Assembly (NCBI RefSeq): GCF_026151205.1
Contig: NC_087082.1
Location: 7,261,908 to 7,325,907, forward strand
DNA length: 64,000 bases
From: Bolinopsis microptera
Lineage: Eukaryota; Ctenophora; Tentaculata; Lobata; Bolinopsidae
Direction: 5' to 3'
The notes under the pieces are model-generated. The model ran no database searches, had not been told where the DNA came from, and saw only the letters and a list, made by a program, of their open reading frames with translations. The translations under genes were made by a program, and so were the position numbers. This document shows, piece after piece, positions 11,062 to 64,000 of this stretch (positions within the stretch are counted from its first letter, which is position 1; every line of letters begins with the position of its first letter).

Positions 11062-11147
<86 letters not shown>

Positions 11148-15003: not shown

Positions 15004-15266
15004 CAAAATTCTAATAATAATTTACCAGTCCGTTAAGTTTGAATATGGAGGACTTCGAGCTGCTTCGACGCGCCGCGCATATTATCATGCCTGCTCGGCT
15101 GCTCCTGTTAACGAGATAGCCGCAGAGCTACGATCTGGAAAGGGTTGGCACGATCGTCAATCAAGTTTGATGAATCGTAAACTCATGAAAGATGGCTCCT
15201 TTACTCCTCAGCATAGAATTTGCGGTGTCGAGATGACTCGACTTCCAACATTAACGAAAACAATTA

Positions 15267-16060
15267 CCTTACTCGGGATTATTACGACGGGTTTATTAAC
15301 GACCGGTTAAAATATGGTTCGGGAAAAATATGGCGAAATTGCTCAAAACCCACCACATTTTCCCGGTCGCCATTTTACCGGTGTCCAACCTTTCAATTTT
15401 AGATTCACAAATTTTGTCTCAGATGTAAATTTCCTTATTAGAGATAAGCAAGTTTAGAAATTTTCGCATTGCTAAAACTTGTGAAACAAGTCGAATTATC
15501 AATAATTGTTGAAAGTAGACAGAAATAATGACTCGTGGTTAATCAAACTAGATGGAAAATAATTTTTAACATTTGAAGCGTAACAACCAGATCGATATTA
15601 AGATAAAGGGAGAGCTGTTTAGTCTTCCAATAAGTTGTAATCATCTTCGTTATCTTCATCTGGATCATCCCTTTCATCAGTTTTAATTAATTCAAGTTTT
15701 AATTTAACTGTTTCTTTTACTTTGAGTCCTATTTCATTATGTAGAGATAATCAATACCTAAGAAATTAAAAATTGGCCTATTTAAATCAAATTTGACAAT
15801 AAGGACAAGAATTGGGCAAAAAGGTGAATTTTTTGCAATTTTAGCCAAATGAAGTCGAAAAACCTACAACAAGTGTCCCAATAGTCTTCTTTAGTGAATA
15901 TAAGACAACGATTAAAATATGAGCACCCATACCCCTTGGGAACCCTAAAAGCTGAGTAGGCGGGTTAATTAACGACCGGTGAAAATGTGGTTCGGGAAAA
16001 ATATGGCGAAATTACCCTAAACCCACCACTTTATCCCGGTCATAATAATCCCGAGTAAGG
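15267..16060 (+). mobile_element. CCTTACTCGGG family element, copy C
   Basis: Complete copy with both terminal repeats. The empty site in unit 1 (near 9352-9362, CAATTAATTAGT) contains one TA where this copy has TA at each end, which establishes a 2-bp TA target duplication for the family. It keeps the acidic tail of the family open frame near 15625-15680 on the minus strand. Confidence 0.85.
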
Positions 16061-16121
16061 TAATTAGTATGCATATTTTCATGCTTTAGATTGTTAGGCA
16101 AAATAATTGTTAATAAATCAA

Positions 16122-19256
<3,135 letters not shown>

Positions 19257-34466: not shown

Positions 34467-37400
34467 CTAAAAACATCCAAACCTGGTACTAGAAGCAGTT
34501 CTTGAAGAATTTGGTGATTTTGAAAGAGAGGCTTTGTAGAGGCTGAGTTTCTCAGTTCGGTCCTTGTCAACACGTCTAAAAGCCTTCCTCATGACCCTCT
34601 GGACGGATTGTTTCACTTCACTCTCCACCTGACTTGAGGGCTTCTCTTCTTCTGAGGAAGAGGAGCTGGACATGGAGTCCACACAAACAGTCACTACCCT
34701 TCTCATCTTAACTGGTATTTGGGGGGTGATCTCCAGGAAGCCGGACTCGTCTTGCATAGTGTCCGGGGAGATGGGGTTACTATTAGTAGTTGGAGAGGCC
34801 ATGGCGTCTAGTTGAGGAGACTCTTTAATTAGAGTTACTGGCTCAACTTCCTCGGGGTCCTCTACTGGAGTCACTTTCTCTGGGGATAGGTCTGAACTCT
34901 CTACAGACGAATAATCTGAATCGTTCCTGTAACCGCTCGATATTAAAACCAGCTTCTTTTCCTGAGTTTTTACCAGTTGCTCGGGAGTTTTAGGTTCCAC
35001 TTCATCGTCATTATAACTTATATCATTGTAGCTTATATCTGGGTTAGCAACAGTCAGCCAATCTTCTTCTGGGACAGAGGAAAGGGTTTCGGAGTAAGAT
35101 ATACTGAAATTGTATTGAGTCCTCTCTGGTGAACAATGTTCAGTATCCTCTTCAAAAATCGTTGCAATTTTGCCCCCTCCCTCAAGCTTGATTGGGATTG
35201 GAGTAGGCATCTTGAGTCGTTTACTAAGAGGAAGGGGACTAGGCGAGACTTCATAAACGTCAGGCTCTACAGACAAACAGTCTCTTTTGAATCGTTTAGA
35301 CTGCACATTCAGTGTAGGTGACGCAGTTGGAGATCGTTTTGAGGAAGAGAGCAGTGGAGATTGGTCTTCAACACTGGGTGGGGTAACCACAGGTAATCTA
35401 ACTACAGGAGATAAGAACTCTGCCTGGCATTCTTTATCCTCTGATGTCACACAGCAGTTCACACTTCTATCTACCAACTCAGTGGGACTGTTCACTGTTG
35501 AGTCAGGAGTGGGAGCTTGAACTGGACTCAGGACATCATTTTGACATGCCACGTCTTGAACACTGATTACTGTCTCTGTTTGGGCATCAACAGTGTCCTG
35601 AGAGATCAAGCTCTTGAGTATCTCCAGCTCCTCCTCCAGATCCTGTACCTTAACCTCGGAGGTCTGCAAGTTTTCCACAAGTGAGCTGTTCTCCTTCTCC
35701 TTCTCACTGACTACTGATTGAACCAGTTTTACTTGAACTTGCAACCTGAACACCCTCTCCTCTAGCTGTGCTATCTTCTCCGCACAATCTGCTCTCTCCA
35801 CAAGAAACACCTCAGACAGCTCTCTAGCTGACATTTTAGCTGTCTCCAACAACTTCACCGTTTGTTCCATCTCTGATGTCTTCTGGTCCAACTGCTCCCT
35901 CAATAATGATACCAACTTGTTGTCTTCCGGAGAGATCTCCTCCACTTTTGCGGGGAGGTTGACCACAGGAATCTTCAACTGAGCCGCCTTAAGTTTAACT
36001 ATAGTTGTGTTCCTTTCTTTCATCTGGGTTTGGAGATCGCTGATGATGCAGCTGGAGTGACAGTTTAAGAACTTTAACTTCTTCTGGGTGGTCAGGACGT
36101 TGCTGTAGTTTCCCTCAACAGCTAAAATGCTGTTTGACAACGAGGAGTAACTCTTGTTTAACTCTGAGAAATTGTTAATAGGTTAAAATAGCTCTCCAAG
36201 CTTAGGAATCATATTTCTATAATATCTTAACTGTGATTAATCAAAAATCTAAATTCTATTATTCAAGAAAGTAGTCAAAAACCCACCATTAAACTTATTC
36301 TGCAGAATTTCAATCTTCTCCAGACAGGCCTCCTTGCCCTGGCAGTGCACTGAGAGCTTGGCCTCCATCTCACAGGCCTTACTCTGAGCCGACACCTTAT
36401 CTTTATTACATTTAACCAGATCACCACGGATCACCCTGTTTTCCTCCTTGAGCACCTCGTATTTCAACTTTGTCTGTTCCTGCTCTGAGACAGACTGGTG
36501 GTATTTCCTCTCTAGGTCCTGAAAGACGAGGATTTTTAGTTTAATTTCGTACTTATAAAGTTTTAAATTATCTAATAGTGTAAAATTTAACCCAGCATAA
36601 TAAGTTTACCGTATTTTGCGTACTACATTGCATTAAACGTTTTGAAGAATTTTTTCAACCGAATTCAACCAGAGGCTAAGAGGCTTGATCAAGTTTGAAC
36701 TTTTGGTGTTTTGACATTTGAAACATATAAGTGATACGACAGGTTCATAGTTCTAACCTTATAATAGCTAAGCGATTTAAACACGAAAATTTCCCACAGC
36801 GAGTTGTATTATTATACTTTAAAAACAGAAAAATACGAAATCCTATAATGTTTCCTTACTATTGAATGCAATTTTACCAGTAGCTGATTTTGATCTTAGC
36901 ATTGCAGAATCCCTGTAAATTGTTTGAGGGCTCACTGCCATAAAAGTACCACGTCTTTTACCCATCCCAGTCATGTTCGCCTCATTCTTAATCCTCTGTA
37001 CCGGAGTCACCTTGATACGGAGCTTCATCGACAGTTCCTCTGGAGCATTTCTTGCAACTAAACCGAGCTTTCTGGCCCAGGAGAAATATCTCAGAGCTTT
37101 AGGAGTGAATGCGAGGAAGATAACTGGGTTGAGAGCTGAAAGCGCTGTTGGGAGAAGGTAGCCAAAGGAAAAGTTCATCCATGCTTCACACAAGCTATTC
37201 ACAGCTATATCACCATTGTTCAGTATGGTTTTGGTTGGCTTCAACTGCAAAATGAATGAGGTTGTGTGGTAGATAACAAATAGAAGGCTACCACAATTAG
37301 TGGCAATGATTTTAACCGTGCCTCTTTTAGTCGCTTGTCCAGGTTTCGCCCCTATACGAACACCTTGCCGTTTGGAAATCTCACTTATAGTCAGCACAGA

Positions 37401-40400
37401 AGCAACCAGTCCGAAAACCTGGAACAAGAATGGAACCATGAACACTAAAGTGATTTGAAGTAGCCTGCTGTGATGCCGCAAGTTCTGGTAGATATTGAAC
37501 GCGTTGTCAGTCCAAGCTGCCATGATCTGAACAACCCATACCGCAGAACGACCAGAGAAAAATAAACTGTAGACTTGCAGAAACACAGACACAAGTAAAC
37601 CTACAACGAGAAAGACTGCCACTCTTCCGATAGTGAGTTTCTTGAACGGATACACGATCTGAACCCACCTACAGATCGCCATGACACTGGTGACCAGTAG
37701 GGAGGAGATTAAAAGAGCCAGTACTACTACCGACCTGACCTTCTCATACACTGACACGTGCAACTTTATACAGTTCCAGGGATCTGGGCCAGCACACCTG
37801 TACTGGTCTGGGAGAAGCTCAGGATGAGGCTCACTGTGGAGTGATGTGGTGAAGATATGGACAGGGAGGAGCACACATGTTGTTAGATCCACAACGGAGA
37901 GGATCCGGAAGAGGAAGCTGGCTACAGAGGGGGGTCGGGAGGTGCTGTAACGGTAGACGAGTGGGTTGAGGGTTATGGAGATGATGGTACTGACGGTGAT
38001 GAGCAGGATGGAAAGGATCTCTGGTGGCGTAGTTTCTCCGTCATTGAAATTTAACATGGTGCAAATGCAATATAGGATCCTACTGTGCACTGTGCAGGAG
38101 TGGACAATAGTTAACAAATCGTACTTATCAATTTCACACCATTACAATCGTAGTCATGTCGATAAAAAATGTAAAAAAGTCAAGTTAACCTATTCCCGAA
38201 ACCGGGAGAATGATAATAAATAACGAAAGCTGAACCCAGAACTAACGACTATAATATAAAACAAAGAGTTAAGAAGGTCTTTTAAGCTACCTAACGTTTG
38301 ATCAGCAAAGATCAAATTACAATTTATTAATGGCTTAAAGATTATCACATCTACATGACGTATTAGCGCCATTAATCGCCAATTTATTACAGTATTACTT
38401 TGCTGACACCCAGTTCTTCCTTAATTATTTTCAGTGTTATTAAGTAAGTAAGTACATACAGACCGAGGAGAACGTTGAACAACACTGAGGCCGCGAAGGC
38501 AAAGTGCCTACGGACGTATAAGACCAGGGGGACTCGACACCAATAGTGCAGAGCAAGAGTTATTAAAAACAGCACTCAGACTATCAGACCACTTCAGTAC
38601 ACTTCAGTACATCTTAATTGCATTAAACTGTGCCACTGCCAACTTAGTTTATATAAGTATATAGCATACAAGTTCATGTATGAGAGAGGGTTGAGGAATA
38701 GTTATTGGTTAACTATGTGTAAAACTGATAACGGAATGGAGGGGGGGGGGGCCGTGCCCGTAAAACTAAAAAAGTCCCAAAAGTGATTACGTAATATGTG
38801 AACGACCCCTTAATCGCTAATTTATTACTTTGCTCATGACTTAGCTTAATCCCAGTTCTTACTTAATTATTTTTAACGTTGAACAACGGAGTGCCTACGG
38901 ACGTATAAAGCCATAGGGACCATTAAAGCCATAGGGACCATTTTAGTAATCACTATATAGTATATAATAAGTTGACTAAGCATAAGGAATTTAAATAAGT
39001 TAATAAATAAGTTAATACTATTATCCGTCTACTGCGTCGTTTTCAGTAGTTCAACTCGTATGAATATATTATTTAACCAATTTTTATTGGGAGTGAACTT
39101 ACATATAATCTAATACTTCCGGCCTAGTTTGAGATTATGTGAGCATATAAAGAATAGGCCGTACCTAATAATACTAATATATCGTACCGATTAGTGATTT
39201 ATTTTCTACCATAAAGATTAAAGCTAGACAGGAGGCTCAATAGCATGACCGATCACCTCCTATCACGAATCGTAAGGTTGTGCGAACTTCGCTTCATAAG
39301 ACTACTTCAGTGCATCTTAATTGCATTAAGCTGTGCCAATCTCATTTAGGTTTATAGCAATAGCATATATAGTTCATGTATGAGGGAGGGTTGAGGAATG
39401 ATTATAAACAAACATGATTATAAACATGAGTAACATTAACAATAATCAAGTATAGAAATCCCGACGGCAAGCAGGCCTCAGACACAAAGTATAGGGCGGG
39501 TGATACTCGTAAAATATTTGTTCCAAATATTGACGTCGACGAGTTCAACTCGGCGCGCGTCTTGGTAGGTTATTAACCTACAAAGCATATATAATATGGT
39601 CGTTCCATGCAGTTGACCAGAACACTGTGTAAAATACATTGTAAGGTTTCACACTGTAGAATCCCTGCTAGAGCTTCAGAGAATTAGACCAACTATAAAA
39701 CGATTCTGCTAAGGACTGTAACGTCAAATGTCGTACAAATATGTTACTGTTAGAAACATCCTACTCCTAAGGTTATTAAGTGTTACAAAAATAAAATATG
39801 CTTTTTATTCTCGAGTTCATCACTGCTGCTATCTAATTGTAAGTAAATTAATATATTTATTCCCTAATTATCTAATAACTCCCTAATTATTGTCATGTTT
39901 TGGACTTGAGACGTTGAGGGGTACTGACATGAACATTTTTTAACACAATTATGTCCGCCCGACCTAATAGGTCCAACGTGTCATAACAAAAAAACCTACT
40001 TGTAGCTAGTGGTCTCCTGAACTCGTATAGGAATTTTCATCCAGATTAGACTAAAAATGACTGAGTTATGAGCCAAAACCCATATATTTGGGCATGTGTA
40101 CCAAATTTGATAGATTTTGGCCCATAAATTGGTCAAATATCAATATTTTTGAATGAAACTAACTTTATATGAAAGGTACATATAAATAAGCCTAAATTTT
40201 ATATTCCCTGTGAGGTATAGCTTTATGTCATGAACATGTAATTAGGTCCGACGGACCTAATTACATGTTCATGTCAGGTACATTGCGAGATGGTTTTGTC
40301 TATATGCAGAAAAAATTGAGTTTGAAGCCGGACGGTGGTCAAGTTATTAATTCGTTTATATAGCCCTTGTTAATACGTCGATTATAATCTGCCAGAATTC

Positions 40401-43535: not shown

Positions 43536-44356
43536 CAAATTATCAACAGAGTTGAAATTGAGGTTGGCTTTATCTCCTCTGACAAGTGTAAAGCGTCAAA
43601 TATACGCTACAAATTCAAAATTATCAAAAGATTATAGTCATATTATTGCTTACAATTTTATGAACGCATAGCCGCCTGCGGCTTTAGTTAGATTATATCA
43701 CGTCATAACATCATTTTAATCCTAGCAGAAAAAGGCATTGTCCCCAAACTGGATATCAAAATCGTCTTAAATTTCTTCAATTATTATTGTTAAAAAGTAT
43801 AATATTGAACTCTGTAGTAACATTATTTCATCTGTATAAGGCACAGCCTCGATGGTAGCTAAAAATCAGACGTACGATCAAATCCCACGTTTCAAGGATC
43901 TCCAGTCTCACACTCATTGGCTGAAAATCATTGTGTTAGAATACTAAACACGGATTTATTTGGATGTGAATTTCCCTGAATTTCTATTAAACCGAGCTTG
44001 CCGCACTATACTTACATTAATCAGTTTAATTTTTCGCAAATAACAGTGAAAATGCAAGCTCAACAACACAATCCTACACCACACAGTAGCAATGAGAAAT
44101 GCGGCATTTTTCCAGTAAGCTTACATTTACCACTTATTAGCCAATACTGTAATTTTGCAGGGAAATTGTAATACAACTTGTGGAAAACCAAGTCTTAAGT
44201 TATATCACCTATGCAACCGATAGACGATATTATTTACCATCAATGATAGATTTATACTTCAACATTAATTTACCTTTCCGATTTTCAAAGTAACCTGAAT
44301 ACCTGATGATGGTGATATACCTCACGCTCGAAATTCTTTAAAAAATACAGACTTAC
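43536..44356. other. Region expected to hold the last prominin exon(s)
   Basis: The prominin exon ending at 44357 has a good donor (GTAAGT), so at least one further coding exon for the cytoplasmic tail should lie here. I could not identify it with confidence. Confidence 0.35.
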
Positions 44357-47300
44357 AATCCAGCGATTATATCTTCCTTGGAGATATCATCAGGGTGTCT
44401 CTCCTCCAACTGTAAGAAGTAGGTTGCTAGGCTACCAGCCACCAACATATGGAACGCAAGGACTAGTCCCAATAACCCTTGTGACATCCACGCTAGAGTC
44501 TGGAGGGAGAGGGAGGGTTTTATAAGTCAGGTGTAATGTAGAAGTACGGTAAAACCCCAATTAACCGCAGCCATTTCCTTCCCCGAAATTATTGATAAAT
44601 GAAACCAAAAAACCTTAAAATATCAGTTGCGCTTTTTTCAATCGTTTTTTCAATAATGATATTGTAAAATGAAATGACAGATTCAGTGGCAGCGCCTAAT
44701 AAAACTAAGGGGTGGCGCTGTTAACACACACAGTCAATAAATAAAGGGACAGTAATTGTGATAATATGGCGTACCATAGCAGAGACCATGTACCCGCAGA
44801 AGTAGTTCATTGTATTGTCAAGAATCTTAGAGATAGGATAACACACAGCCAAGGTATTCTGCATTGTTTCGTTCATCTGCCAGGTAAAACAGCTAACCTC
44901 GTTGTGAAGTACTGGCTGCCAGTAGTCAATATAAGTCTGAAACAGCGGGGTAGATTAATTAATAGTAGATTAATTAACTAATAGAACTTGTTCAGCTGCA
45001 TCTAACTTCTTCGTGTTAAGTTAGTAAGTTTTAAACCTTTATTCAAATCTGCTTTTTTCTGCTGTGTAAATTACCTTACCTCCGTCTGTTTTTGGTTGGG
45101 ACTAAATAGTTGGCAGTTGGGTTTCACGGATAATTATTTATTAATTAATTAATGATAGGTATACCTGGTTGATGATATCCCAGGAGAATTTGACCCCGTC
45201 GTTAAGAAGATTCTTGTTGGTAAAGTCGTACTCTTCCATCAGCAGATTTATGAACTCTGGACCGTACTTACTCCACTGTGCCTCTACCAGACTAGCTTTA
45301 TTTTTCATGTCTAACTGATGAATGAGATATGGATCACGTTCATATAGTATTTTTATCTTAAGGGGTAGTATTTGTTTATATTCCAGCCGATGTGTTTATA
45401 TATATTATATAATATATGTATGTATTATTTGAAATAGACTGAACAAATTGGTAGAAACTTACAATCGCTGCCTTCTTTTCTGTTATGGCGTCCACCCATT
45501 CAAGACAGTAAAATTTATGAAAGTTCCAAGTAGCATTTTCGTGAGTAAATAGATGCTGAAAAAACGATTAGTTTTAAGTTTTCATTTTACAGTTTATTGA
45601 TTAAAACAATCGATCATTTCCCCACGCGAAATAGTGTAAAAAGGAAAATGTTGGCAATTACTGACTGCAGTTTTAATTCCTTTATTTGTTTAATATAACT
45701 TATTTAAGTTAATCTCCCAGTCTACCTTGCAATCGAACACTTCTCCCTCTGTTTCAGTAATTTGTGCACCGTATGGTTTGAAAGCACTGCAGAAATCTTT
45801 ATTATCTATCTTTATCTTACTATCTGATTCGGACTTTGGGCTTATCTCGTCAAACGTTACCTCCATAAAACCGTTTGCTAACTGAATTTTTACAATTTTT
45901 ATGATTTCGCAAAGATTATAAGATTCTTAATTATCTTCACTGCAGACTAGATAACTGATAACTGAAGAAATCTATATCAAATGCCTTTAGAAAATCAAGA
46001 ATGAAGTTTAGTTATAAGAGAAAAACCTATAATATCATGATTAAACAAAAACAGTAAAAATTTACACAGCAAAGAAACGCACGTTATTTTTTAGAGTTTT
46101 CCAAGAGAGCTGTGTGGCAAAGCTGACATTCCAGAAAGTTAGCCATTCCACAAGTTCAGGAGGGTAGGCTGGGTAGTTGTTGAAGTTAAGAGACACGTCG
46201 TTCATCAGCTGCGTTACCGTGTAATCTATATTCAGCGACTGAGGAGTATTGACAACTTTTAAAACAAATCTTCGTACTAAACTTTCTCTCAAATTTAGAT
46301 TTGTTCTTACCGTTTCATCCCCGTAAATATTGTTAACAACGAACTATTACCTTATCATAACGTCATTACAGTCAATTAGAATTTCTGATAAACCACAAAT
46401 TAAAAACTAATCAATTAACCTCGTTGAGTTGCATCATGGACACAAGATCATAATCTGAATCGTTAACGAGTCCCAGAGAATACCACAGGGTCTTGTTATC
46501 CCGGCACCTCAGCCACAGATCCTTGAAGGTCATTGGGTAGGTGTCATTTCCTAACACTGCACGTCCCAGCACGGAGTAGTCAACTATCACTTTATCGTCA
46601 AACAGCTGTAATGAAGTCAGTGTAGGTTGTGTGAGTTGTGATTATTTGCCACACCAAACTGTTGCTTCTGCTTTAGTGCCGTCAGTATAATAATGATCAT
46701 GCACAGGGACCAGGGTAAGGTAAATTTTAAAAGTTTAAATTAACGTGGCTTTAAATTGACGTTTTATAAGAAATACCCTTCTTATTTTGGTGGTTTTAAC
46801 ATTTTCAAACGGACTTGATATGACTCACCCTGAAAAGGGACTCATTGTAATAATCTTTACAAACGAGACTGAAGGCTGTTCCAGGAACGAAGAAGAGAGT
46901 AGCCATGAAGAGGTTGATGATAGCCATCATAGCGGCCCAGTAGGAGGATAACTTTATCAGCCTTCCCCCCATACTACACGCTGATGTCCTGAAAAAGGTT
47001 GGTACACACTATAATCTTACAATATAGCATAACATTAACACAATCAAACAAAACAAGCGGTTAAACTTTCTGCTACTGTATTATTACAGTAGTAGTATTG
47101 TATATTAAGTTACCCGTCCGTTTACTTCATGTGCAGAACCGTTCATTTACAAAACCAGACTCAGACCTTAGACTGACGTTACCTCAAATGAGGGGGAACA
47201 CCTCAGACTGACGTTACCTCAAATGAGGGGGAACACCTCAGACTGACGTTACCTCAAATGAGGGGGAACACCACAGACTGACGCTACCTCAAATGAGGGG

Positions 47301-50300
47301 GAAGTGGGGAACACCTCAGACTGACGTTACCTCAAATGAGGGGGAACACCTCAGACTGACGTTACCTCAAATGAGGGGGAACATCTCAGACTGACGTTAC
47401 CTCAAATGAGGGGGAACATCTCAGACTGACGTTACCACAAATGAGGGGGAACACCTCAGACTGACGTTACCTCAAATTAGAGGGAACACCTCACTCTGAC
47501 GTTACCTCAAATGAGGGGGAACATCACTGATGTTACAGTATCCCATGCAGACACCAGCTACAGCTAAACAGGCCGACAACATGCAGAATGTCACTATGAA
47601 GATCGTCCCAATGTTCCTGGGAGAGGATATTGGTTAGTTACAGTCATCACAACCTAGCATCTGTTAGCTCGAATGGAGGAGCTTCAGAGAAAGAGAGGTC
47701 AGCCGAGATTTTAAACGAGGTCAATTTCTAAGCCAGGTCTCTCCCCAGTGTTATTGCTTTCCTCTACAATACAGTGAATATCAATCTATTTTCAGTATGA
47801 CTCACTAAAAAACAAATCAAGATAACCTGATATTATCGAATTTGCTGGCGTCACTGTCGGATGAAATGCTGGACAAAATTGTTGTTTTGAGCTTGTCGAA
47901 CACTTCGTTGGTCTCGTTGAATCTCTGTTGTATTGTTTCGAACTGAGCCGTCATCTCCGCTGCTGCTTCATCAAGAGAGAAGTACGCCTCTGTGATACAG
48001 ATAAGATTAGATAACAGTCAGCATAGCACCGAACAGATTGATGAATGATGACAATATGTTCCTTGGTTATTAGTATTCACTGAATATGTGTAATGGTGTA
48101 ATTGCTAGACAACAGACACTCGTATATCGTGTCTGAGGTCTTTCAGTTCAGACACTCTTCTTAAAAATCTTAAAAGAGTAACATATTATAAAGGACCAAT
48201 ATTGACAAAAACAACTTCCTCGTTGGACACAAATAATTATCTGTCAAGGATAAGTCCATATCATTGAAGTGCAGAGAAAAATACTCTACGAGTTTTCTTA
48301 CCCTTTCTTGCTAGGTCAGATGTTTTCCACATTGTGAAATCTGATGCAGTAGGTATATTTTCACCATACCGTTTCTTCTCCAAAACAGTACAGGTTGGGT
48401 ATTGGAAAGCAGAGGAGCCTCTAGCTGTAGCTTCTTTCAGCGCTTTGGCCGTGGAGGGAGCACAGAAAGGTACTTTACAGTACTCCCAGTCTGTAGCTCC
48501 TGTCCCTGTGAAGCACCTGCAAGAAGGGTTGTAGAGTGATGGAGGTCCATTCTAAAATAATCAACAGTGCCGCAAAGACCCTATTTAGACAGAAAATGCG
48601 TGGCTTCATTACACGTCACTCTTCTGCAAGTTCCATCTAGTTGGGTACTAGGAATGCAACCTGGTCACATTTTAACAGAGACTTAAACAGAAAATGATCA
48701 TGATAGAAGCAAACAATTTGAAAGATTTTTAATAGGACATTTTCAAATTTCAGTTTTCGACGAAGGAAAATTTTGGAAGATTTTCAAATAGAAGTTTTTT
48801 TGCCATTTCCTTGACCGAAATTTCACTGTTTTAACTTAATTTTTCTTGAATGACTCAATAATGAGTTTACTGTGGAGTGTGGATGCACTCGATTGAGGTG
48901 CTGAAAGTTACCTTACTCGGGATTATTACGACGGGTTTATTAACGACCGGTTAAAATATGGTTCGGGAAAAATATGGCGAAATTGCTCAAAACCCACCAC
49001 ATTTTCCCGGTCGCCATTTTACCGGTGTCCAACCTTTCAATTTTAGATTCAAAAATTTTGTCTCAGATGTAAATTTCCTTATTAGAGATAGGCAAGTTTA
49101 GAAATTTTCGCATTGCTCAAACTTGTGAAGCAAGTCGAATTATCAATAATTGTTGAAAGTAGACAGAAATAATGACTCGTGGTTAATCAAACTAGATAGA
49201 AAATAATTTTTAACATTAGAAGCGTAACAACCAGATCGATATAAGGATAAAGGGAGAGCTGTTTAGTCTTCCAATAAGTTGTAATCATCTTCTTTATCTT
49301 CATCTGGATCATCCCTTTCATCATCCCCCCTTTTCTGAGCCTGGAACTCGTAATCATATGCCGCTCTTAGGAGTACCTTCATTTTGTCAGCTAAAGGTGC
49401 GACAAAATGAAGAAATTAAAAATTGGCCGATTTAAATCAAATTTGACAATAAGGATATATGACAAGAATTGGGCAAAAAGGTGAATTTTTTGCAATTTTA
49501 GCCAAATGAAGTCGAAAAACCTACAACAAGTGTCCCAATAGTCTTCTTTAGTGAATATAAGACAACGATTAAAATATGAGCACCCATACCCCTTGGGAAC
49601 CCTAAAAGCTGAGTCGGCGGGTTTATTAACGACCGGTGAAAATGTGGTTCGGGAAAAATATGGCGAAATTACCCTAAACCCGCCACTTTATCCCGGTCAT
49701 AATAATCCCGAGTAAGGTAGCTAACCGTAGAAAACTTTGAAATAGGTCTTTATCTTCGGTTAGTAACATAAATATGAAATGGAAATAAACACTCCACTTA
49801 CCAAGCTCGTGTCTTGACATCATTGTCTGTTTTAGTTCCATACAGCCCCTTTTGAGGGCTAGGATTCCTACAGAAGTTATGTTGAAAAGATATATCTTCA
49901 ATATCATCCAGATAATACAGCCCAGTGTAGCCCTGGTCAGCCGCCCAGGAGTCCCACGTGGCTCCTTCTTCTCCTTCTACTGCCACCTGAGCCCACTTCT
50001 TACAGTCCGTTCCTTTCACTGTTACGGAGATATTCCCACGGTAGTCCGACTGGTTCCCGCCGGGTTGTATTTTATCTTCTTTGTATATTTCTTTTGGTCC
50101 GCACTCTGATATGGTTAGAATGATAGGCTATGAGCTGGTTTGAGGAAAATTCTTAAAAACACATTGCATTTGTTTTCTTGTTATAACTAATTATTCATCA
50201 AATTAACAAATTAACAAATTAGTTAAGCAGATATGACTTACTTGTATAGTCAGTATTGTTGGTGTTAGGATCACTTTGGTCAAGGGCATACTGAATACTG

Positions 50301-53300
50301 ACACAGCAGTCTCCCCAAAATAGCAATGTAGCTGTGTCTTTCACGCGACATCCTTCAGGATCCGAACAAGTGATTTCCTCCTTTATAGTGAGCTTTGGTA
50401 GTATGGCTGAGGTAATGATTCGATAGAAGATGAATAAGAAAATTAAAAATAATCTATTGATACACAAATTATTTATATAATACTAATAGGGAGGCTGGTC
50501 TTGTAACAAACTATGATTTAAAACATAAACCTATAAACTAAAACTCAACTGGGCTCTCCTATGTCACCAAACTAAACCAATAAGTAATTTCAGATTATTA
50601 TATTTTTCTATATTAGTATAACAAGTATATTGACGTATATAGTAGTGGATGGTTGAGGGGGTTTCAAGCACAGGTCACTCTCAAATCCTAAAGATAAGCA
50701 GTGGCCTTCGGCAATTGAAACCTCTTCAAACCTCCCCTGATTTATTTATTGTTGATATTGTTTGATTGTGCCGTAAAAATAAATATTTGTTTTATTAAAT
50801 ATTTGTTTTATTAAAACAACAGCCACTTTGAAATTCACATCACGTGATGTAGTGAGCAGATCACGTGATGTAGTGAACTGATCACGTGATGTAGTGAACT
50901 GATCACGTGATGTAGTGAACTGATCACGTGATGTAGTGAGCTGATCACGTGATGTAGTGAACTTATCACGTGATGTAGTGAACTGATCACGTGATGTAGT
51001 GAACTGATCACGTGATGTAGTGAACGATCACGTGATGTAGTGAACTGATCACGTGATGAACTAACCACATGCTCCTGATACCCAGGAAGTATCATCATCT
51101 GATAACGTGAGCACTCCCTTCATCAGATAGTACTTGGTTACACCGCTAGCCACTTCTTTTGTTACACCAGTGCACTCTGAAAGGAAGGTATTGTGGGCAA
51201 GTCACAAGTGGGCAACAGTAAGAAAAAACCAATTGGCAATTATGTAGTTGTAACAATTAATATACTGTGATACTGTATAATTATTAATTAAGCACCATTA
51301 ATTATTAATTAAGTCTTATTAACGAAGATGTAATTGTCGGATTAATATCTTAAATACTACTCGTTTTCTGGATTAATACCTTTGTTAACAGTACAAGGAA
51401 TTTGAGCTTTACTGAGATCGTCGTAGCCTGTCTCACCCAGTTTCTCACCCAGACTCATCTTGGTGTGTTCACACCACGTGACTAGTAAAATATAGTTACA
51501 AATTAATTAAACTGATTATATAAAAATACAAAATAATATAATTTTCCTCAAAAACTGAATTACTATTCAATGGCTAAGAGGTCATAATATATTAGATTAA
51601 ATATGAATTACTGCTTAAACCAGTTATCAATCGTTTTATTAAAAAATGTCCATCTTGGAGATCAAAGTACAGTTAGCAGTTTAAATTAATATGCTATACC
51701 CAGTTGCTGCACTGCCCAAGATATGAACATTACAATTATTCTAAAAGTAATATTATCTAGCTGATTATCCAAATAAAGATTGGTAACTGACCACAGGCCC
51801 CGGTGACCCAGGAGGTGTCCTCAAACAATGAGGCTGTCAGCGAGCCCTTGCCCAGATAGAATTTGGTTACCCCGCTCCGCACCTCTTTTACTACTCCGGT
51901 GCACGCTGAAAATAAGGTGATAGAATATGTTCAAAACATTACCGTACCGTTGAAATGACAAATTTCATTCAAACAAAAATGTAATAGGGTGAATTCCCCC
52001 ATCATACCTTTGTCAGCGGTTGCAATACAAGCGTTTTGGGTGGTTTTGAGATCGTCGTACCCTGTTTCAGTGAGTTTCTCATTCAGGTTGTACTTATCAT
52101 GCTCGCACCAGTCAACTGTACAATTATATCTTATTACTAATTGTATGAACCTATAAATATGGAGTATAGGGGTCTTACTAGGATATGAGCGAAAAAATAA
52201 ACGTTTAACGCTTGCCTTAAGGGGGCCGGGGGGTCTTCATCAAAATTCTCTCGAAATTGACTTTATAGTTGTTTCTGGTAGAAGGGAGTGATATCTACCA
52301 GCTGCTTTTGGTCCCATGAAAAATATTGTTCCTAGCCGAAATTATCACCGGTCTAAGGTCAGCGCTTATGTGTAATTGTATTGCGCGAGCGATTTTCAAT
52401 CGCAAATTCTGAAAATCGAGTCTAAAAATCTATCTTCTCCTACATTTTTTGAGTAATCACCCTGAAACTTTCAGGATATGTTTTGAGATAGGCCTTTAAA
52501 AAATTTTTATTCAATTTTGAAAATCTTGGACCTCGTTTTTTTACGATTTTTTCAGGTCCAAGATTTTCAAAATTAAATAAATTTTTTTAAAAGGCCTATC
52601 TTAAAATTTTGGCTTGAACGATCTCTTTTAAATGATCCCTAGAACATATCCTGAAAGTTTCAGGGTGATTGCTCAAAAAATGTATGAGAAGATAGATTTT
52701 TAGACTTGATTTTCAGAATTTGCGATTGAAAATCGCTCGCGCAATACAATTACAAATAAGCGCTGACCTTAGACCAGCGATAATTTCGGCTAGGAACAAT
52801 ATTTTTCCATGGGACCAAAAGCAGCTGGTAGATATCACTCCCTTCTACCAGAAACAACTATAAAGTCAATTTCGAGAGAATTTTGATGAAGACCCCCCCC
52901 CCCCCCCCCGGCCCCCTTAAACTCTTAAACACGATCGGGATGTTTTACTTTTATCAAAAATTATATTTTTGGGTCGGAGAAAACATTGGCCACACTCTAC
53001 ATCGAGTCCAATGTTTCATAATTTAAATTAATTCAATTAATTTTGATGAATATTATAAACTGACCGCAGGCACCAGACAGCCAGGAGGTTTCATCTGCAG
53101 CTTTATCAGCTGCAGCCGCCGTCAATACCCCCTTCATTACAAAGTATTGGGCTGCTAGCTTTGTAACTCCAGTGCACGCTGAACAAATGTTATAGTGCAG
53201 GCAAGTGGGTACTGTGGTAAAATGAAACAGTCGTACCATACCATTCTGTTAAAATGACAAATTAACATTGAACCTAAAATCAAATTGTTGGACTATTGAA

Positions 53301-56300
53301 ATCTATAATATACATTTTGGATGATTATCAAAAGTAATACCGGTGTTAGCTGTGCAAGCATCTTGAGCGAGCGGTAGAGTGAGGTATACGTCCTCAGTCA
53401 GCTTTTCAGTTAGGTTGTATTTTGCGAACTCACACCACTCAACTGTACGATAAAATCTACTTATAGATCATACAAGGCTAAAAATATGGAGAATTTAACA
53501 GGATTTGATTTCAATTTGACGATGATAATCTCTGTATTCTTAAAAAATTGAATTATTTAATTTCTCAAATGATATTATATCATGTTTGATACAAAAGTAT
53601 TTTTTCAGTATAACATAAGGTACCTGCAGCCACTGTCACTGTTATCTTATCATGCTGTGTGACTAGGAGTTTACCGGTTGTCAGATCCGTCAACATGCAC
53701 GTTCCTCTGTTTTTATTATAACAGTTACAAATTACAAAGTTGAAAATTACTTGTCTACTGTCAGATGAATTAACTGTGGATTGTGGTTTCCCTTCTGTAT
53801 TTTGAGAACACAACTAATATGGAGAGCATCATCTCAAAGTTGCTGCTCAAAATTTAGTTAGTATTGAAAATCAGACAGTGCAACTCTTACGTGTAAGAAG
53901 GTTGTTTACTATAAAACTTGGTGTCCTTCGCTTCTAGGGTTCCGTTGTGGAAAAACTTTCCGTTAAAGTAAGCCTGTGTAGAACCATGTGATTATGAGTT
54001 TATTTAAAACCTCGGAAAGTGGTCAAGACTTAAATGTAACCAAATCAATTGTACAGTTCAAATAAAAGTGGGACTGTATTACCGATCTAGCAAGAGCCCC
54101 CAGGGCACCGTTTTCTGCTATGTTAACCACGTCCTCTTTAGCTTTAATTACCTCGTCGTAGAACCACTGTCCAGAAAGTTTATAAATTACAGTTTCCAGG
54201 AAAAATACACAATATCAATACGCTTGTTGGGCTTGAGCACCAAAAATCTTGAAATATTATTGCTCTGCTGAACAGTAGATGACCAATGACATCTGAAAAC
54301 CATACAAATAACTAAATAGATTGGTGACATCAAACATACCTTGGCGGGATCAACTGCGGTGAGATAGCTAGGGTTGATCTCTTTATCTGAGTCACACTTG
54401 GCGCTGTTCGCTGACTGCATGAAAATTTAAATTATTTAATACTGATACTCAACTTTTTGAGGGGATATGTTTCAGAATTTTTACAACTGTAAGTTGTTAA
54501 GCGCAGTAACTTATTCCTAATATATACCAGTATACATAATGTTAAGTGTTTTTATGAATAATTATATTTCAGTAAGAATAGTAATGATGGAATAAGAAAA
54601 AGACTCACTGCGGAACACCATTTTTTAATAGCTGTTAAACAAGTTTTAGCTTCTTTTAACTTTGTAAGAAGAGTGAACGTGGTCTCGTTTTCCGCTGTAT
54701 ATTTATCATAGAGGTTTACTATGTTTGCTTTTTGATGATTTCCTATCACTGAATAAGTTAGATAATATAAACAGGTGATAACATCAAATTCACAAGACAA
54801 AATTATAGATTTTTCTCTTTTTGGGCAGTCCCATTAATTAACAAATCACCGTATTATACGTAGAATCACAAAGACACTGCACATAATTAGATAACTAAAC
54901 AAGTTATCTCATGAAGATATGATCTAAAAATAGCTTCCAACAAGCACCTACTGTCAGCAACCATGAGAGATTTGTTGTACATATCCGACACATTCTGTGC
55001 TATCTGAAGGTACACGTAACCAGACGCATTGACCACAGCTTGGTTCATGCGAGTCCTTAGTATTCCCAGTTGGGTCTTCTTGTAGTCTTCCATAAACAGC
55101 ACAGTCATTTGCTGCAGTGGGTATAATGTATAATGTATAATGTATAATGTATAATGTATAATGTATAATGTATAATGTATAATGTATAATGTATAATGTA
55201 TAATGTATGATGTATAATGTATATAATGTATTATAATGTATTATAATGTATAAACAGCACAGTCATTTGCTGCAGCGGATCGTTAAGTTGCGAGTATAAT
55301 GTAGACAATTATTAAGTAACAAAAGGTAGTTGGTCAGTAACTTATATTATTAGACTTATATTAATAAATATACTTGTGGCAGTTGTGGGGAAAAGCAAGA
55401 AATTCTCACACTTTTATACCAGTCCTTTTTGCTATCAAAATAGGGTGCATGATATAATATGGCATAATTTATCGTTTATACAGGACTGAGCAGGACATTA
55501 AAAAGATGAAATGGTATATTTATAATAGTAAATTTACCTCTTCAATATTTTTAGTAAAGTTTTCTGTGACCTCCACAGTCCATTGAATGTGTCTTGAAGC
55601 TTCATTTACATTATTTGAGATGTGCGTATTGGCAACCCACGCAATGATACAACCAAACCTTGAATAATGTCAGTGTTATTACGACCAGTTAAGTTGCAAC
55701 TAGTCTATTTCACAAAGATGACAATCACGATTGAAATAATAATTACATATATTTTTTAAATAATGATCTATCTATAATTTAGATAATACAATATCAGAAT
55801 TAAAGAAAAATACATTAAAGCTTACATTACAAAGACAGTAAAAAGAGACAGTAGGAACGATAAAATGAATCTCATAGAACCCTGACTGTCAGCAATTCTT
55901 TGACTTTTCACCTCAGTGATGTTTCCTGTAAAATTCGGAGATGTTACAGCCCTAACAATGGATATTGAATGTATGATGCAATAAACCTCCAGCTCCCGGG
56001 CCTCTGGCAAAACTAGATCTTAATTTTTCAGACGTATTATTATTTATTATGGTTTATGATGGAAAGCGAGAAGTAAAACCAAGATTGACTTACCTGTTAA
56101 TTTGAGTGACCAAAAGATTATGTAGAAAACGAGAATAAACGTAGCAGTCAGGACCCCGATAGCGATAATCACCGCTATGGTGAGTTGGTATTCTACTAAT
56201 TTTAGTATTTTTGATAAACTGTCAATAGGAGATAGTTCCATTGCCAGTGATACCGTTTCTGAAAGACGGTATTATTATCGGGGATATTATCATGCACATG

Positions 56301-57187
56301 GTCTCCATATTTGAGGTTACCTTGTGTACAGCCTGCATGATAAAGTGAATCAAAGACCTCGATATCATTGGAGAACTGGAAAAAAAAATATTTGAACATT
56401 TGTAGCAACAGGTTAGTGGCGTAACGAAGGCCCCCACGGACCCCTGCTGTAATAGTCAATTTCAGCAGGGTGCCTAATGGTAACGTTATGCCACTGCAGC
56501 AGGTACAACTAAAACTGTCAAGTTATCCTATATCTTAAAATGTGTTACACCAGATCAGTACTAAAGCCACATTTACCAAAGAGTGACTTTCTGGTTATTA
56601 CATCTAAAAAAGCATCGCCAATTGTTTTGAATACGCTCAATGTCTTGACATCATAATTAGTTCCGACATCAGTAATAATAGGAGGTACTATTGGATAGGG
56701 ACGAAGTTCATTCTCACAGGTTTCTTTGTTGTACAGCTTTGATGCACTGAAAAATGAACCATAATGATTTTGTTACTTAGTTAAGTACATAGTTAAGTTA
56801 CTTAGTAAGTTACTTAGTAGGAATAATTTTGGAATCCAAATTGATTCTTGTGGAATAAAATTCAGTCAGTCACAAGGACAAATCACTGGCTTGAGAATGA
56901 TTTTGATTGCACCTTAACCAAAATTATCCTTACTCATTATGACACAATTAAAATAATAAAGATCAAATTTATTGAATTTAACGGATTCATAAATATAAAA
57001 GTATTTCTCTTGAAGCATTGGAATTTAAGCTTAAATGACACACTTACTTTGGCCACCTTTTCCAGTCGGTGTAATCTGGTGCATCTCTGATATGTCTGCT
57101 GCCCTTCTTTTCGACTGACTTTAGATCCCAACCATATGAGAGCAAGGGGATGGAAGTCAAACTGATCACCACAGTCCAAAGTATCAT
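44357..57187 (-). CDS. Prominin-family protein with PAN/apple-like repeats and a kringle
   Basis: About 31 exons encode ~1,480 residues, against ~860 in typical prominins (five-helix proteins of membrane protrusions that bind cholesterol). Start ATG 57187 gives a signal peptide (MILWTVVISLTSIPLLSYG). TM1 (56094-56258) and TM2 (55826-55925) follow, then a coiled first loop (55538-54083). Inserted in that loop are a Cys-bearing exon (53624-53813), three two-exon PAN/apple-like modules (53442-51066), another Cys-rich exon (50242-50406) and a kringle (49802-50105 plus 48302-48516). Then come TM3 (47506-47616), TM4 (46829-46988), the second loop (46420-45165; TFKDLWLRCRDNKTLW) and TM5 (44775-44936, 44357-44499; NYFCGYMV). 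Phases agree at all joins except 53891/53813; the donor after 56746 is ambiguous (56577 or 56551), as is 46068/46083. The last exon is missing. The IC1 loop lacks the usual cysteine cluster. Confidence 0.85.
47170..47524 (-). repeat. 35-bp minisatellite copying the prominin TM3 exon donor
   Basis: Ten units, read on the minus strand as CCCCTCATTTGAG then GTAACGTCAGTCTGAGGTGTT. The unit nearest 47506 is the genuine exon end and donor, used in phase to join TM3 to TM4 across an intracellular loop resembling that of prominins (GVCMGY ... LRTSACSMGG). The nine others lie in the intron and most keep the complete donor. Confidence 0.85.
48302..50105 (-). other. Kringle domain (two exons) within the prominin gene
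   Basis: Exons 49802-50105 and 48302-48516 join through acceptor CTTCTTGCAG at 48517. Six cysteines follow the kringle pattern: KCGPKE, YRGNISVTVKGTDCKKW, HNFCRNP, RAWCFTGTG, DWEYCKV and PFC. The conserved YRG, GTxCxxW, NFCRNP and WEYC blocks are all present. The linker is longer than usual between C2 and C3. Kringles are disulphide-knotted protein- or lysine-binding modules, always extracellular, which agrees with the predicted loop topology. Confidence 0.85.
48911..49717 (+). mobile_element. CCTTACTCGGG family element, copy D
   Basis: Complete element with both terminal repeats and TA borders, inserted in the intron that splits the kringle. On the minus strand it keeps VAPLADKMKVLLR, then YDYEFQAQKRGDDERDD and the acidic stop-terminated tail. 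It is therefore the best preserved C-terminal part of the family open frame in the window. Confidence 0.8.
50840..51058. repeat. 21-bp array of CACGTG palindromes
   Basis: About ten units of GATCACGTGATGTAGTGAACT in a prominin intron. The array begins within a few bases after the donor at 51065 (GTTAGTTCATCACGTG, minus strand). Each unit has the E-box core CACGTG inside the longer palindrome GATCACGTGATC. Confidence 0.9.
51066..53442 (-). other. Three tandem PAN/apple-like modules in the prominin gene
   Basis: Module 1 is exons 53341-53442 plus 53065-53178, module 2 is 52008-52115 plus 51792-51905, module 3 is 51380-51481 plus 51066-51176. Each is 71-74 residues of the form WCE, KYNLTEKLTE, AQxAC, CTGVTKE, KYYLMKGVLT, DTSW, GACG with four cysteines. 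The CTGVT plus YYL arrangement resembles PAN/apple domains. All introns within and between modules are phase 1, which allows module shuffling and tandem duplication without frame loss. Family assignment is tentative; the repeat itself is certain. Confidence 0.75.
52222..52916. mobile_element. 695-bp full-length foldback flanked by TTAA
   Basis: Arms of about 320-360 bases are near-perfect reverse complements around a 20-base centre (52534-52553). The ends GGGGGCCGGGGGGTC and CCCCGGCCCCC are bordered by TTAA at 52218-52221 and 52917-52920. TTAA target sites are typical of piggyBac-type elements, but the palindromic body has no coding content. It lies in a prominin intron between two PAN-like modules; a C-run of about 18 marks the right end. 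Confidence 0.75.
55091..55276. repeat. Heptamer array between two copies of a splice acceptor
   Basis: About 18 copies of TATAATG (55119-55250, slightly varied on the right) lie directly before the exon starting at 55111 on the minus strand. The 25-base exon start plus acceptor at 55094-55118 (AAACAGCACAGTCATTTGCTGCAG on plus) is repeated at 55252-55276, on the far side. A second potential acceptor followed by a truncated exon copy is thus present. Confidence 0.85.
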
Positions 57188-57473: not shown

Positions 57474-58342
57474 ATGACTAATGAGGTGACAAGTAAAACT
57501 TTTAGCAGTTTTCAAAATTTAAGTTTTGCAAATGCAATTCTCAGGTTTCTCATTGATGTTTATTTTTTGCCTTTTTTTCAATTATTCGCATTCTTTCGAA
57601 CCTCCTGCTACTCATCAATATCAGAGATCTCCTCACAGGAATTTACCTGCTTTGCATCGCAATTGTGGATTCCATTACATACGGAGAAGAAAACTGCAAG
57701 CAGCAACATGCGTGGTTATCAAGCACCATGTGTTCATCACTTGGAGTGGTAAGTACATTTGGGGCGTAAATATTCCTTTTTTCCATGACTCTTTTCAGCG
57801 TGTTCCGTTTGTTTGAAATTTTCAATTTGATATTTAATATGTTAGAAAACCTTTTATTGAAAATCGCTGGTTTGATTATGACTGTTACTGTTCCAAGCCT
57901 TATGATTGCTATTGAGCCTCTTATTTTATTCTTTGAAGATTTGTTTGTGAACGGAATTTCATACAACCCTAACATGAAACTGTTTTTACCTTGTGTGGAT
58001 TTTTTAAAAACTCACTTCGGTGTTATAGAAAGTTTCTATGGGAACGTAAGGTTGCAAGGTGACACGTCATGGCAACGCATAAACTCACTGATTGACGAAA
58101 TGTTCACAAGTGACTACAACAATGGGACACTTGACCGAAGGAAAATTCATTTTTACGGTGCTGATGGTGTTTGTCTTTTCAAGTACTTTGTCCAGAACAA
58201 TTATCCACAAAAAGCCTTTTTGTGGCTTTGCTTAGGAGTTAACTTATTCTGTTTTTTTGACAATTTGCTTTTGCTATACTATAAGCTCATCATTGTGAAA
58301 ACAAAAAAATTGGCTGAAACTTTGGAACTCAAAGAAATCTAA
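57474..58342 (+). CDS. Small two-helix membrane protein, family unknown
   Basis: Two exons, 57474-57748 and 57799-58342, join in phase across a 50-base intron (GTAAGT ... CTTTTCAG). They encode ~272 residues. The second exon carries a hydrophobic segment KIAGLIMTVTVPSLMIAIEP and a second one LWLCLGVNLFCFFDNLLLLY near the C-terminus, with a ~90-residue hydrophilic stretch between them (including DTSWQRINSLIDEM, YNNGTLDRRKIHFYG). The first exon is open in two frames; the frame used here is the one that matches the phase of exon 2. An alternative start at 57526 offers a signal-like N-terminus but is out of phase. I do not recognise the family. Confidence 0.5.
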
Positions 58343-61859: not shown

Positions 61860-64000
61860 CTACCTACCTATGTCACCTATGTTGAGATTCGTTAAGCTTT
61901 AATACAGGGCCATCACATTGTGTGACCACCCCACAGAGAGGAGATCTCTCTGTCATTCCTCCAGCAAAGCAGCGAGTTTGAGTTCTGAGGAGTGTAGCCC
62001 CTGATGGGCGGTGTATCCGGAAGAGATAGCATGAACTGGGTGAGCTGCGATTTGAAATGCTCTCGGTCGCCGATGGAATTCAAATGGTAAGGCATTGCAT
62101 TCCACAATTTTGGGCCTATGACTGCAAATGAATTATCATACAGTGACTGATTTGCTGATGAGCTGTGTCTGCATGCAGATGGAATGACTGCAAGGTTTCC
62201 AAAACGTGGCCTGGAGACAAACTGCACGTTAATGTCGTTGCTGGTATGGTGATGGAGAATCTTCCACATATGAAGTAAAATGAACCGCTCCCTGCGACGC
62301 TGTAGAGACATCAGAGATAGCCGTTGAAGACGGTCCCAATAATGGAGATCACGCATTCCAGTAATCCTTGCGGTGAAAGCTTTCTGTACGCTTTCAAGCT
62401 CCTGGATGTCACATATCTTGGAGGGGTGCCATAGCGGGCAACAGTATTCCAGTAAACTACGAACCATCGACTTGTAAAGCGTAAGCATTATGACTGGAGA
62501 TCTTGTCTGAAAGACACTGAAAACCCAGGCAGCTTTTTTTCGAGCCTTGTTTGCTGCGGTCTTGATGTGGGGTTGCCAAGATAGATCGTTGGAGACGAGA
62601 ACCCCGAGGTCTCTTAGTTGACCTACAGGTGCGAGTGACTTGTCTTTGGATACTGAGTACTGGTATAGTTCACTAACAAAAGGAAGTTCGACGAGAGCAC
62701 TACGTCGATTGTGTCTGTGACCTTAGTTGTAGTGAACGGTGGATTTTGACGTATTGAACGCACGTTCCAGTCATTTTGTAGTAAACGTTATTGAACGTTA
62801 GTGAACGTCAGTGATTATCAAAAACAAAATTCATGAAAATAAACTTTTTGAAATCTCGATTTCCCCAACTGATAATTATTAATGAACATCTATGAACATT
62901 TAATTGTCCTCATACTCATAAGTCAATTGTTAGTTAGCATAATTGTTGACTTAGCGGAGAGATAAAAGACTAACGTAGTAACTCGTACTCCGTTTTATAG
63001 ATCTAGATTGTAGAGTACGCTATATAAATATCTTCCACATACCACACTTTATATTATCTCAAACGACTAGTAACCGAGTACCGAGATTTGGCTGCTGAAT
63101 CGAAAACAGTCGGATATCAATATATATTTTCCTGTTAGCTAGACTAGAACTGAGTGGCAATCAGGAGAATTAAAACTATACTGAAAGGTTCTGGAATTTC
63201 TAACCGCTCATGGTTGCTAGATGTCAGAAAATTGTTTTATCTGCCATTGAACCCTGTGATCCTATCATGAGGACCCGGCAATAGCCATTGGATCATAAGC
63301 ATGCAAGCAGAAACTATTTGTCGAACTAGAGTACGCTACTTGGACTCTAGTTCGCCTGCTTCGACACGTACCGAAATACGACAGGGGTCATATCTGGCGA
63401 ATTTAATATGTCGAACTATAGTGCGTGTCGAACTAGAGTACGTGAATCCCACTGAACACTACTAGTATAATTTATCCATAACGTTCAGAACGTGAGATGA
63501 GTTTTAGTGAACGTATGTACAGAACATTTTTAGTGAACGTTCCGTACGTGCACTACAACTAAGTCTGTGACACATGTACTCAAACTTGTCTTTATGTAGT
63601 GCCATATTGTTTCGTTCAGACCATTTTATGACACTGTTCAAGTCGTTTTGTAACACAGATACGTCTTGTTCACAGGTTACCGATATTGAAACACGAGTGT
63701 CGTCTGCAAAGCATCTGATGATGGATTCAGTTATGCAATGCTCAATATCATTAATGAAAATAAGGAACAAGATCGGCCCGAGGACTGTTCCCTGGGGGAC
63801 ACCACTGATGATCAGAGCGAGAAATGACAAGTGGCCGTCGACCACTACAGCTTGCTTCCGGTCTGACAGAAAAGATTCAATCCATTTGATGATTTTTGGA
63901 TTTAAGCCATAGAGGTGAAGTTTCCTGATCAACAGTTTGTGATCAACTTTATCGAACGCCTTAGCGTAATCAAGATATATAGAATCAAAGTCAGCTTTGT
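61860..64000 (-). mobile_element. CR1/Jockey-type LINE ORF2, split by a hAT insertion
   Basis: Reading leftward from the window edge, the minus strand encodes reverse transcriptase motif A (LDYAKAFDKVDH), SGVPQGTVLGPILFLIFIND, the catalytic FADDT motif (here FADDTR) and NNMALHKDK. The frame is interrupted by the 62722-63563 element. It resumes at 62713 with LRDLGVLVSNDLSW and LEYCCPLWHPSKICDIQELE, through IGPKLWNAMPYHLNS to the stop at 61913. Apart from the insertion no stop or frameshift is seen, so this copy is young. Upstream RT motifs and the endonuclease lie beyond 64000. The 3' end, with a TAGGTGACATAGGTAGG repeat tail, abuts the hAT remains at ~61860. Confidence 0.9.
62722..63563. mobile_element. 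842-bp non-autonomous hAT-type element
   Basis: Terminal inverted repeats CTTAGTTGTAGTG and CACTACAACTAAG are flanked by an exact 8-bp duplication TCTGTGAC at 62714-62721 and 63564-63571. The body holds repeats of GTGAACGTTA near both ends and a TCGAACTAGAGTACG region (63318-63440) similar to ~25125-25240. No transposase is encoded. It could have been mobilised by a hAT transposase such as that remaining at 60284-60719, whose element shares the 13-base terminus at 59840. Confidence 0.9.

Follow-up and report, generated by a model that had tools for sequence, protein, structure and literature searches.

A 64,000-nucleotide stretch of the genome of the ctenophore Bolinopsis microptera (NC_087082.1, positions 7,261,908 to 7,325,907; hereafter the window, to which all coordinates refer) carries on its minus strand a gene predicted to encode a prominin with a kringle and three four-cysteine modules in its first large extracellular loop (loop 1). 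With a probability of about 0.6, we read it as one intact prominin gene that has received the kringle and the modules by class 1-1 exon shuffling, and whose product would present them as a recognition head on a protein of membrane protrusions. The fusion of prominin and kringle recurs in a related predicted protein, P0001 (1155 residues, on a 3726-base Joint Genome Institute (JGI) contig), in which both Kringle and Prominin are annotated.

Structure of the gene and its assignment to the prominins

The gene model was built by hand from the minus-strand stop-to-stop frames (57.2-44.3 kb) and candidate splice sites, and was then corrected against P0001. It comprises 30 exons, from 57187 down to 44353, which join into one open frame of 1379 residues with a terminal TAA and no internal stops; after splicing, the two remaining frames contain 102 and 112 stops. 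In the corrected model, all 29 introns (median length 203 bases) have GT-AG ends and the phases match at all 29 exon joins, where the initial annotation had spoken of nearly every join. As judged from its sequence, the gene is intact and single, and a tblastn search of the window with P0001 found no second copy outside 44.3-57.2 kb.

The donor of exon 2 was placed at 56577 because the alignment with P0001 is continuous from this exon into exon 3 (56258). Our first open model had included an additional 55-base exon at 56375-56321 (-), with GT-AG ends and in frame with a donor at 56602; it was dropped, P0001 aligning without it, and could be a rare alternative exon. The order proposed initially, in which an N-terminal hydrophobic stretch, two transmembrane (TM) helices, a loop, the modules and the kringle follow one another on one strand, is borne out on the minus strand. 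TM3 to TM5 and the second loop are likewise present in order, but they lie beyond the range first given for the gene (48302..57187), down to 44353.

The Pfam family Prominin (PF05478) matches the whole chain in two stretches with 110.8 bits (expectation value E 7.2e-32; cut-off 34.3). The N-terminal part, scored alone, places residues 103-340 on profile positions 65-293, and the C-terminal part, within the whole chain, residues 893-1359 on positions 367-798. Hydropathy peaks, which were found on the first model and lowered by 10 after exon 2 for the corrected one, give five TM helices arranged 2+2+1 (residues 133-151, 179-197, 945-963, 995-1013 and 1339-1357), while a sixth, N-terminal peak (residues 1-19) is read as a putative signal peptide. 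The extracellular loops span approximately 747 (loop 1) and 325 residues (loop 2), and the intracellular loops approximately 27 and 31; the 19-residue windows behind these estimates make the helices appear shorter than they are.

Trp-795 of human PROM1 (unverified sequence, 865 residues with a Trp at 795) aligns with W1335 in exon 30 and with W1110 of P0001. Bell et al. report this Trp to be the most conserved in prominins, and define the family by five TM helices in the order 2+2+1, extracellular loops longer than 300 residues and intracellular loops shorter than 25 (PMC11405016); intracellular loops of approximately 30 residues are given elsewhere (PMC3108902). The profile match, the 2+2+1 helices and the conserved Trp together argue that the encoded protein is a genuine member of the prominin family, not a mere look-alike. 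The exons are as follows.

Exon 1: 57048..57187 (-), ATG; hydrophobic N-terminus, signal peptide or anchor
Exon 2: 56577..56746 (-), extracellular N-terminal segment; donor set by the P0001 alignment
Exon 3: 56094..56258 (-), TM1 (residues 133-151)
Exon 4: 55826..55925 (-), intracellular loop 1 with the greater part of TM2
Exon 5: 55538..55658 (-), end of TM2 and start of extracellular loop 1; 31/40 residues identical to P0001
Exon 6: 54952..55111 (-), loop 1
Exon 7: 54609..54748 (-), loop 1; 10/46 identical to P0001
Exon 8: 54340..54414 (-), loop 1
Exon 9: 54083..54166 (-), loop 1
Exon 10: 53891..53973 (-), loop 1
Exon 11: 53624..53706 (-), loop 1; phase-1 end directly ahead of the module cassette
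Exon 12: 53341..53442 (-), first half of module 1; phase 1-1
Exon 13: 53065..53178 (-), second half of module 1; phase 1-1
Exon 14: 52008..52115 (-), first half of module 2; phase 1-1
Exon 15: 51792..51905 (-), second half of module 2; phase 1-1
Exon 16: 51380..51481 (-), first half of module 3; phase 1-1
Exon 17: 51066..51176 (-), second half of module 3; phase 1-1
Exon 18: 50242..50406 (-), four-cysteine segment ahead of the kringle, residues 658-712; phase 1-1; 30/54 identical to P0001
Exon 19: 49802..50105 (-), kringle cysteines 1-3
Exon 20: 48302..48516 (-), kringle cysteines 4-6 and the linker after them
Exon 21: 47827..47989 (-), return of prominin loop 1
Exon 22: 47506..47616 (-), TM3; 31/36 identical to P0001
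Exon 23: 46829..46988 (-), intracellular loop 2 and TM4
Exon 24: 46420..46605 (-), extracellular loop 2
Exon 25: 46083..46238 (-), extracellular loop 2
Exon 26: 45726..45881 (-), extracellular loop 2; weak conservation, 17/52
Exon 27: 45463..45555 (-), extracellular loop 2; weak conservation, 6/31
Exon 28: 45165..45314 (-), extracellular loop 2
Exon 29: 44775..44936 (-), extracellular loop 2
Exon 30: 44353..44499 (-), TM5, including the conserved Trp (W1335), then a short cytoplasmic tail and the TAA stop

Two short repeats adjoin these exons. A 7-base tandem repeat (14.7 copies, 55121-55223) lies just upstream of the exon 6 acceptor, and a 35-base repeat (10 copies, 47165-47523) covers the final 18 bases of exon 22 and extends into its intron; the unit of the latter includes the exon 22 donor (GAG/GTAACG), so that donor-like sites are repeated.

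The kringle of loop 1 and its counterpart in P0001

The two prominin matches are separated by 552 residues (341-892); the corresponding part of the Pfam profile (294-366) is 73 positions long. The net gain is thus approximately 480 residues, short of the insertion of roughly 600 initially estimated. The insert consists, in this order, of loop sequence from exons 8-11, the three tandem modules, the four-cysteine exon (residues 658-712), the kringle and a linker.

The initial annotation had staked its reading on a six-cysteine kringle joined from 49802-50105 and 48302-48516. The spliced 144-residue piece (50105-49802 plus 48516-48302) matches Pfam Kringle (PF00051) with 48.6 bits (E 1e-12; cut-off 34.3), and the six kringle cysteines occur in order (C714, 747, 791, 815, 827 and 832), with a lengthened stretch ahead of the fourth. 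Among PDB sequences, the P0001 kringle is matched best by plasminogen and HGF; with a profile built from the window protein and P0001, plasminogen, apolipoprotein(a), HGF, prothrombin and ROR kringle chains are among the best 60 of 63 matches, the ROR kringles appearing in this two-protein profile search only, at E of at least 0.069. No prominin chains, only kringle chains, were among the matches listed in the PDB sequence searches. The intron that splits the kringle contains an 812-base repeat (48908-49719) with short inverted ends (approximately 30 bases, 90%), of which further copies lie at 7658-6854 (92.7%) and 15264-16062 (91.5%); it is presumably a mobile element.

P0001 was the sole match among those listed in a protein search with the first model (7996 scored candidates). 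It aligns co-linearly, its residues 1-438 at 53.6% and 454-1154 at 54.6% identity, and its whole chain scores 106.2 bits for Prominin and 37.0 bits for Kringle; there was no NCBIfam match for it. Outside the module array, identity per exon ranges from 31/36 (TM3) down to 6/31 (exon 27). The two proteins have in common the position of the kringle, the four-cysteine exon preceding it, the six cysteines and the motifs YRGN, AWCFTGTG and WEYC. The proposal of a prominin with a kringle in its first extracellular loop thus stands, on the Pfam matches and on the same fusion in P0001. A search with region 450-830 of P0001 returned only P0001 itself among the matches listed (7994 scored candidates, from a pool apparently poor in animals).

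A gene of the type found in the window would need approximately 23 introns to encode P0001, and its contig has room for approximately 258 further bases; the contig is, therefore, very likely derived from complementary DNA (cDNA). The prominin-kringle fusion is thus conserved and probably transcribed as one message. This bears on the possibility that adjacent genes, for secreted and for membrane proteins, have been joined on paper only. The model is hand-made, and 17 AATAAA motifs occur on the coding strand within the gene span, albeit mostly in introns. The same fusion in P0001 argues against genes run together: the N-terminal part, the kringle and the C-terminal part are all in one P0001 protein, the alignment, leaving aside the module array, extends across the junctions (with its weakest points at exons 7, 11, 26 and 27), and the phases agree at every join. 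Joined genes are refuted unless P0001 itself is a chimaeric assembly, and we consider them very improbable.

The four-cysteine modules and the exon phases

The three repeated four-cysteine modules described initially are real and in tandem (residues 441-512, 513-586 and 587-657); module 1 has 54% identity with module 2 and 58% with module 3. The label PAN/apple that the initial annotation attached to them (PF00024 and relatives) is supported neither by Pfam, nor by PDB sequences, nor by a comparison of profiles. By eye, the modules are PAN-like in having four cysteines of which the middle two stand close together (C...CTGV), and PAN and kringle domains co-occur in plasminogen and HGF; divergent PAN/apple domains would thus make up a plasminogen- or HGF-like PAN and kringle set within a prominin. 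Against this, none of the three modules matched a Pfam family at E up to 10 (the HMMER filters drop most matches above approximately 0.1), and the joined array matched only an unrelated domain of unknown function (DUF; E 0.089). The best PDB sequence matches, ‘ORF49 protein’ (0.28) and SMAD3 (0.31 to 0.4; 0.069 to 0.094 with a profile), are taken as chance. Comparison by hhalign with four unverified PAN/apple sequences gave a probability of 0.5% (E 0.11, 12 columns), although alignments as thin as these (3 and 4 rows) are compatible with a remote link. A PAN/apple identity appears unlikely to us. None of 3543 candidates in a protein search with the module region matched at E up to 1, but the pool is apparently so poor in animals that the result says little about them.

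Two repeats lie in the introns of the array: a self-inverted stretch (52221-52905, 83% over 732 aligned columns) between modules 1 and 2, and a 21-base tandem repeat (10.5 copies, 50839-51058) in the intron following module 3.

The three-module array is missing from P0001, where the alignment jumps from exon 11 to exon 18 across a short P0001-specific segment; between these two sequences, the modules are optional or lineage-specific, and the kringle is the shared part. Exons 12-18 are each of phase 1-1, and exons 19-20 are so jointly. The frame survives the loss of exons 12-17, of any one complete module, of exon 18 or of exons 19-20 together, and is broken if exon 19 or exon 20 is skipped singly; without exons 12-17, the product would have 1162 residues, as compared to 1155 for P0001. 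In prominin-1 of frog, mouse and human, alternative exons encode extracellular domains or the C-terminus (PMC3108902), by which a skippable cassette of exons 12-17 becomes plausible; equally, the modules may be lineage-specific.

That the modules are constitutive, gained after divergence from the lineage of P0001 (or lost in the latter) and not alternatively spliced, is to us an evenly balanced proposition. The 54% and 58% identities suggest that the triplication may be fairly young, and in P0001 nothing but a short segment particular to it links the prominin regions on either side. On the other side stand the uniform 1-1 phase of the six exons, the near coincidence in length of the skipped product with P0001, and the fact that extracellular exons of vertebrate prominin-1 are often alternative (PMC3108902).

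Metazoan exon shuffling draws on domain types of class 1-1 (PMC8001218), and the phases described here follow that pattern. Class 1-1 extracellular exons appear to have entered a phase-1 intron of the first large prominin loop. The kringle, with its preceding four-cysteine exon, is probably the older insertion because it is common to P0001, and the tandem array lies just upstream as a potentially skippable six-exon cassette.

Proposed role and comparison with known systems

Prominins have been studied mainly as membrane-bending, cholesterol-binding proteins. A kringle gained in loop 1 and kept between sequences that are approximately 55% identical marks a site in that loop which tolerates a partner-binding domain. 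The case resembles a class 1-1 shuffling event within the loop of a multi-pass protein, and the kringle and the four-cysteine modules provide a concrete handle for finding extracellular partners.

The prominin core would sit in the curved, cholesterol-rich membrane of protrusions (in microvilli, cilia and shed vesicles), with loop 1 holding the kringle and the modules out toward the matrix or an adjacent cell. The head could there bind a protein partner, by analogy with Drosophila Prominin and the secreted Spacemaker, and inclusion or skipping of the three modules would alter its reach or specificity. Prominin-1 binds cholesterol and bends membranes (PMC11405016), and the interaction of Drosophila Prominin with Spacemaker keeps the microvilli of neighbouring rhabdomeres apart (PMC11776279). 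Since P0001 retains the kringle, an extracellular binding partner of this prominin is probable, and a ligand-binding or adhesive role is plausible. A more far-reaching proposal, which we regard as doubtful, has the prominin as a modular receptor on the tips of microvilli or cilia, reading the surroundings with the kringle and a splice-switchable array of a new four-cysteine domain family; if true, one membrane-bending protein would also sense its surroundings.

The inserted modules might, instead, be inert spacers that enlarge, stiffen or shield the loop by disulphide-rich folds and have no specific ligand. Such a role would suit the altered lysine site of the kringle, the absence of the module array from P0001, and a protein known mainly for membrane bending (PMC11405016). 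The P0001 kringle, however, keeps its six cysteines along with YRGN, AWCFTGTG and WEYC, seemingly more than a free spacer needs, and we rate mere spacing as rather improbable.

Several points weigh against a shuffled recognition head on one intact prominin gene. The model is derived from genomic sequence alone, with exon 2 fitted to P0001, and some donors are weak (e.g., GTTATC after exon 21 and GTTAAT after exon 24), so that the exact ends of single exons could be off. In the full 1379-residue chain, Kringle scores 33.2 bits, 1.1 under the cut-off of 34.3. WEYC is preceded by Asp here and by Ser in P0001, as compared to Arg in the plasminogen kringle compared, which we take to be the lysine-binding Arg71 of kringle 4; this residue does not define the kringle family, but ordinary lysine binding is doubtful with it replaced, and this best-known mode of kringle ligand binding is probably lost. 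Conservation is low at exons 7 (10/46), 26 (17/52) and 27 (6/31), and the absence of the modules from P0001 fits splicing and lineage difference alike. P0001 is presumed to be a transcript from the 3726-base size of its contig, and an AlphaFold2 prediction of P0001 by itself (mean predicted local distance difference test score, pLDDT, 35.1) gave no usable geometry.

Elsewhere in the window, a frame with a Pif1 2B domain (4460-5107 (-), 6.5e-11) perhaps belongs to a Helitron-like element, with which such domains are associated. Two frames at 9423-9821 and 16122-16514 (-) are near-identical by eye, with long simple repeats nearby (10923-11372 and 16640-17621); the first, the only one of the pair that was scanned, has a weak match to the tail of 7tm_1 (18.2 bits, cut-off 30.5). 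The frame at 28870-29415 (-) matches a GH141 insertion domain below threshold (17.9 bits, cut-off 27). No Pfam match was found for three others: a single 432-residue frame with many hydrophobic stretches (36843-38141 (-)), by eye like a G-protein-coupled receptor (GPCR); 57574-58342 (+), whose first part resembles TM2-TM3 of a leucine-rich-repeat GPCR and is followed by a 190-residue frame; and 61913-62722 (-), which resembles the end of a retrotransposon reverse transcriptase.

Among known systems, the protein shares with Prominin-1, -2 and -3 (PF05478, the CD133 family) the five-pass 2+2+1 topology, the two large extracellular loops and the Trp of TM5. Its loop 1 has approximately 747 residues versus approximately 250 in mammalian prominin-1 (PMC11776279), and its intracellular loop 1 has no cysteines (one in P0001), as compared to four to eight in Xenopus prominins (PMC3108902). 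In a freshwater sponge transcriptome, prominin was reported as undetected (PMC4942974), and a search of open-licence full texts, judged for the kringle by titles and opening lines of abstracts, yielded no prominin that combines with a kringle or a PAN domain. The kringle and the three extra modules in loop 1 set the protein apart from Prominin-1, -2 and -3. PAN/apple domains, which often adjoin kringles, are similar to the modules in size and in having four or more cysteines, but profile or sequence support for the likeness is absent. With the kringles of plasminogen, HGF and ROR1/ROR2, the kringle described here shares the six cysteines and the YRG, WCFT and WEYC motifs, while its loops are longer and the Arg found before WEYC in the plasminogen kringle compared is replaced. 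Membrane proteins with a kringle such as ROR, KREMEN and PIK3IP1 are single-pass, whereas this kringle is located in a loop of a multi-pass protein.

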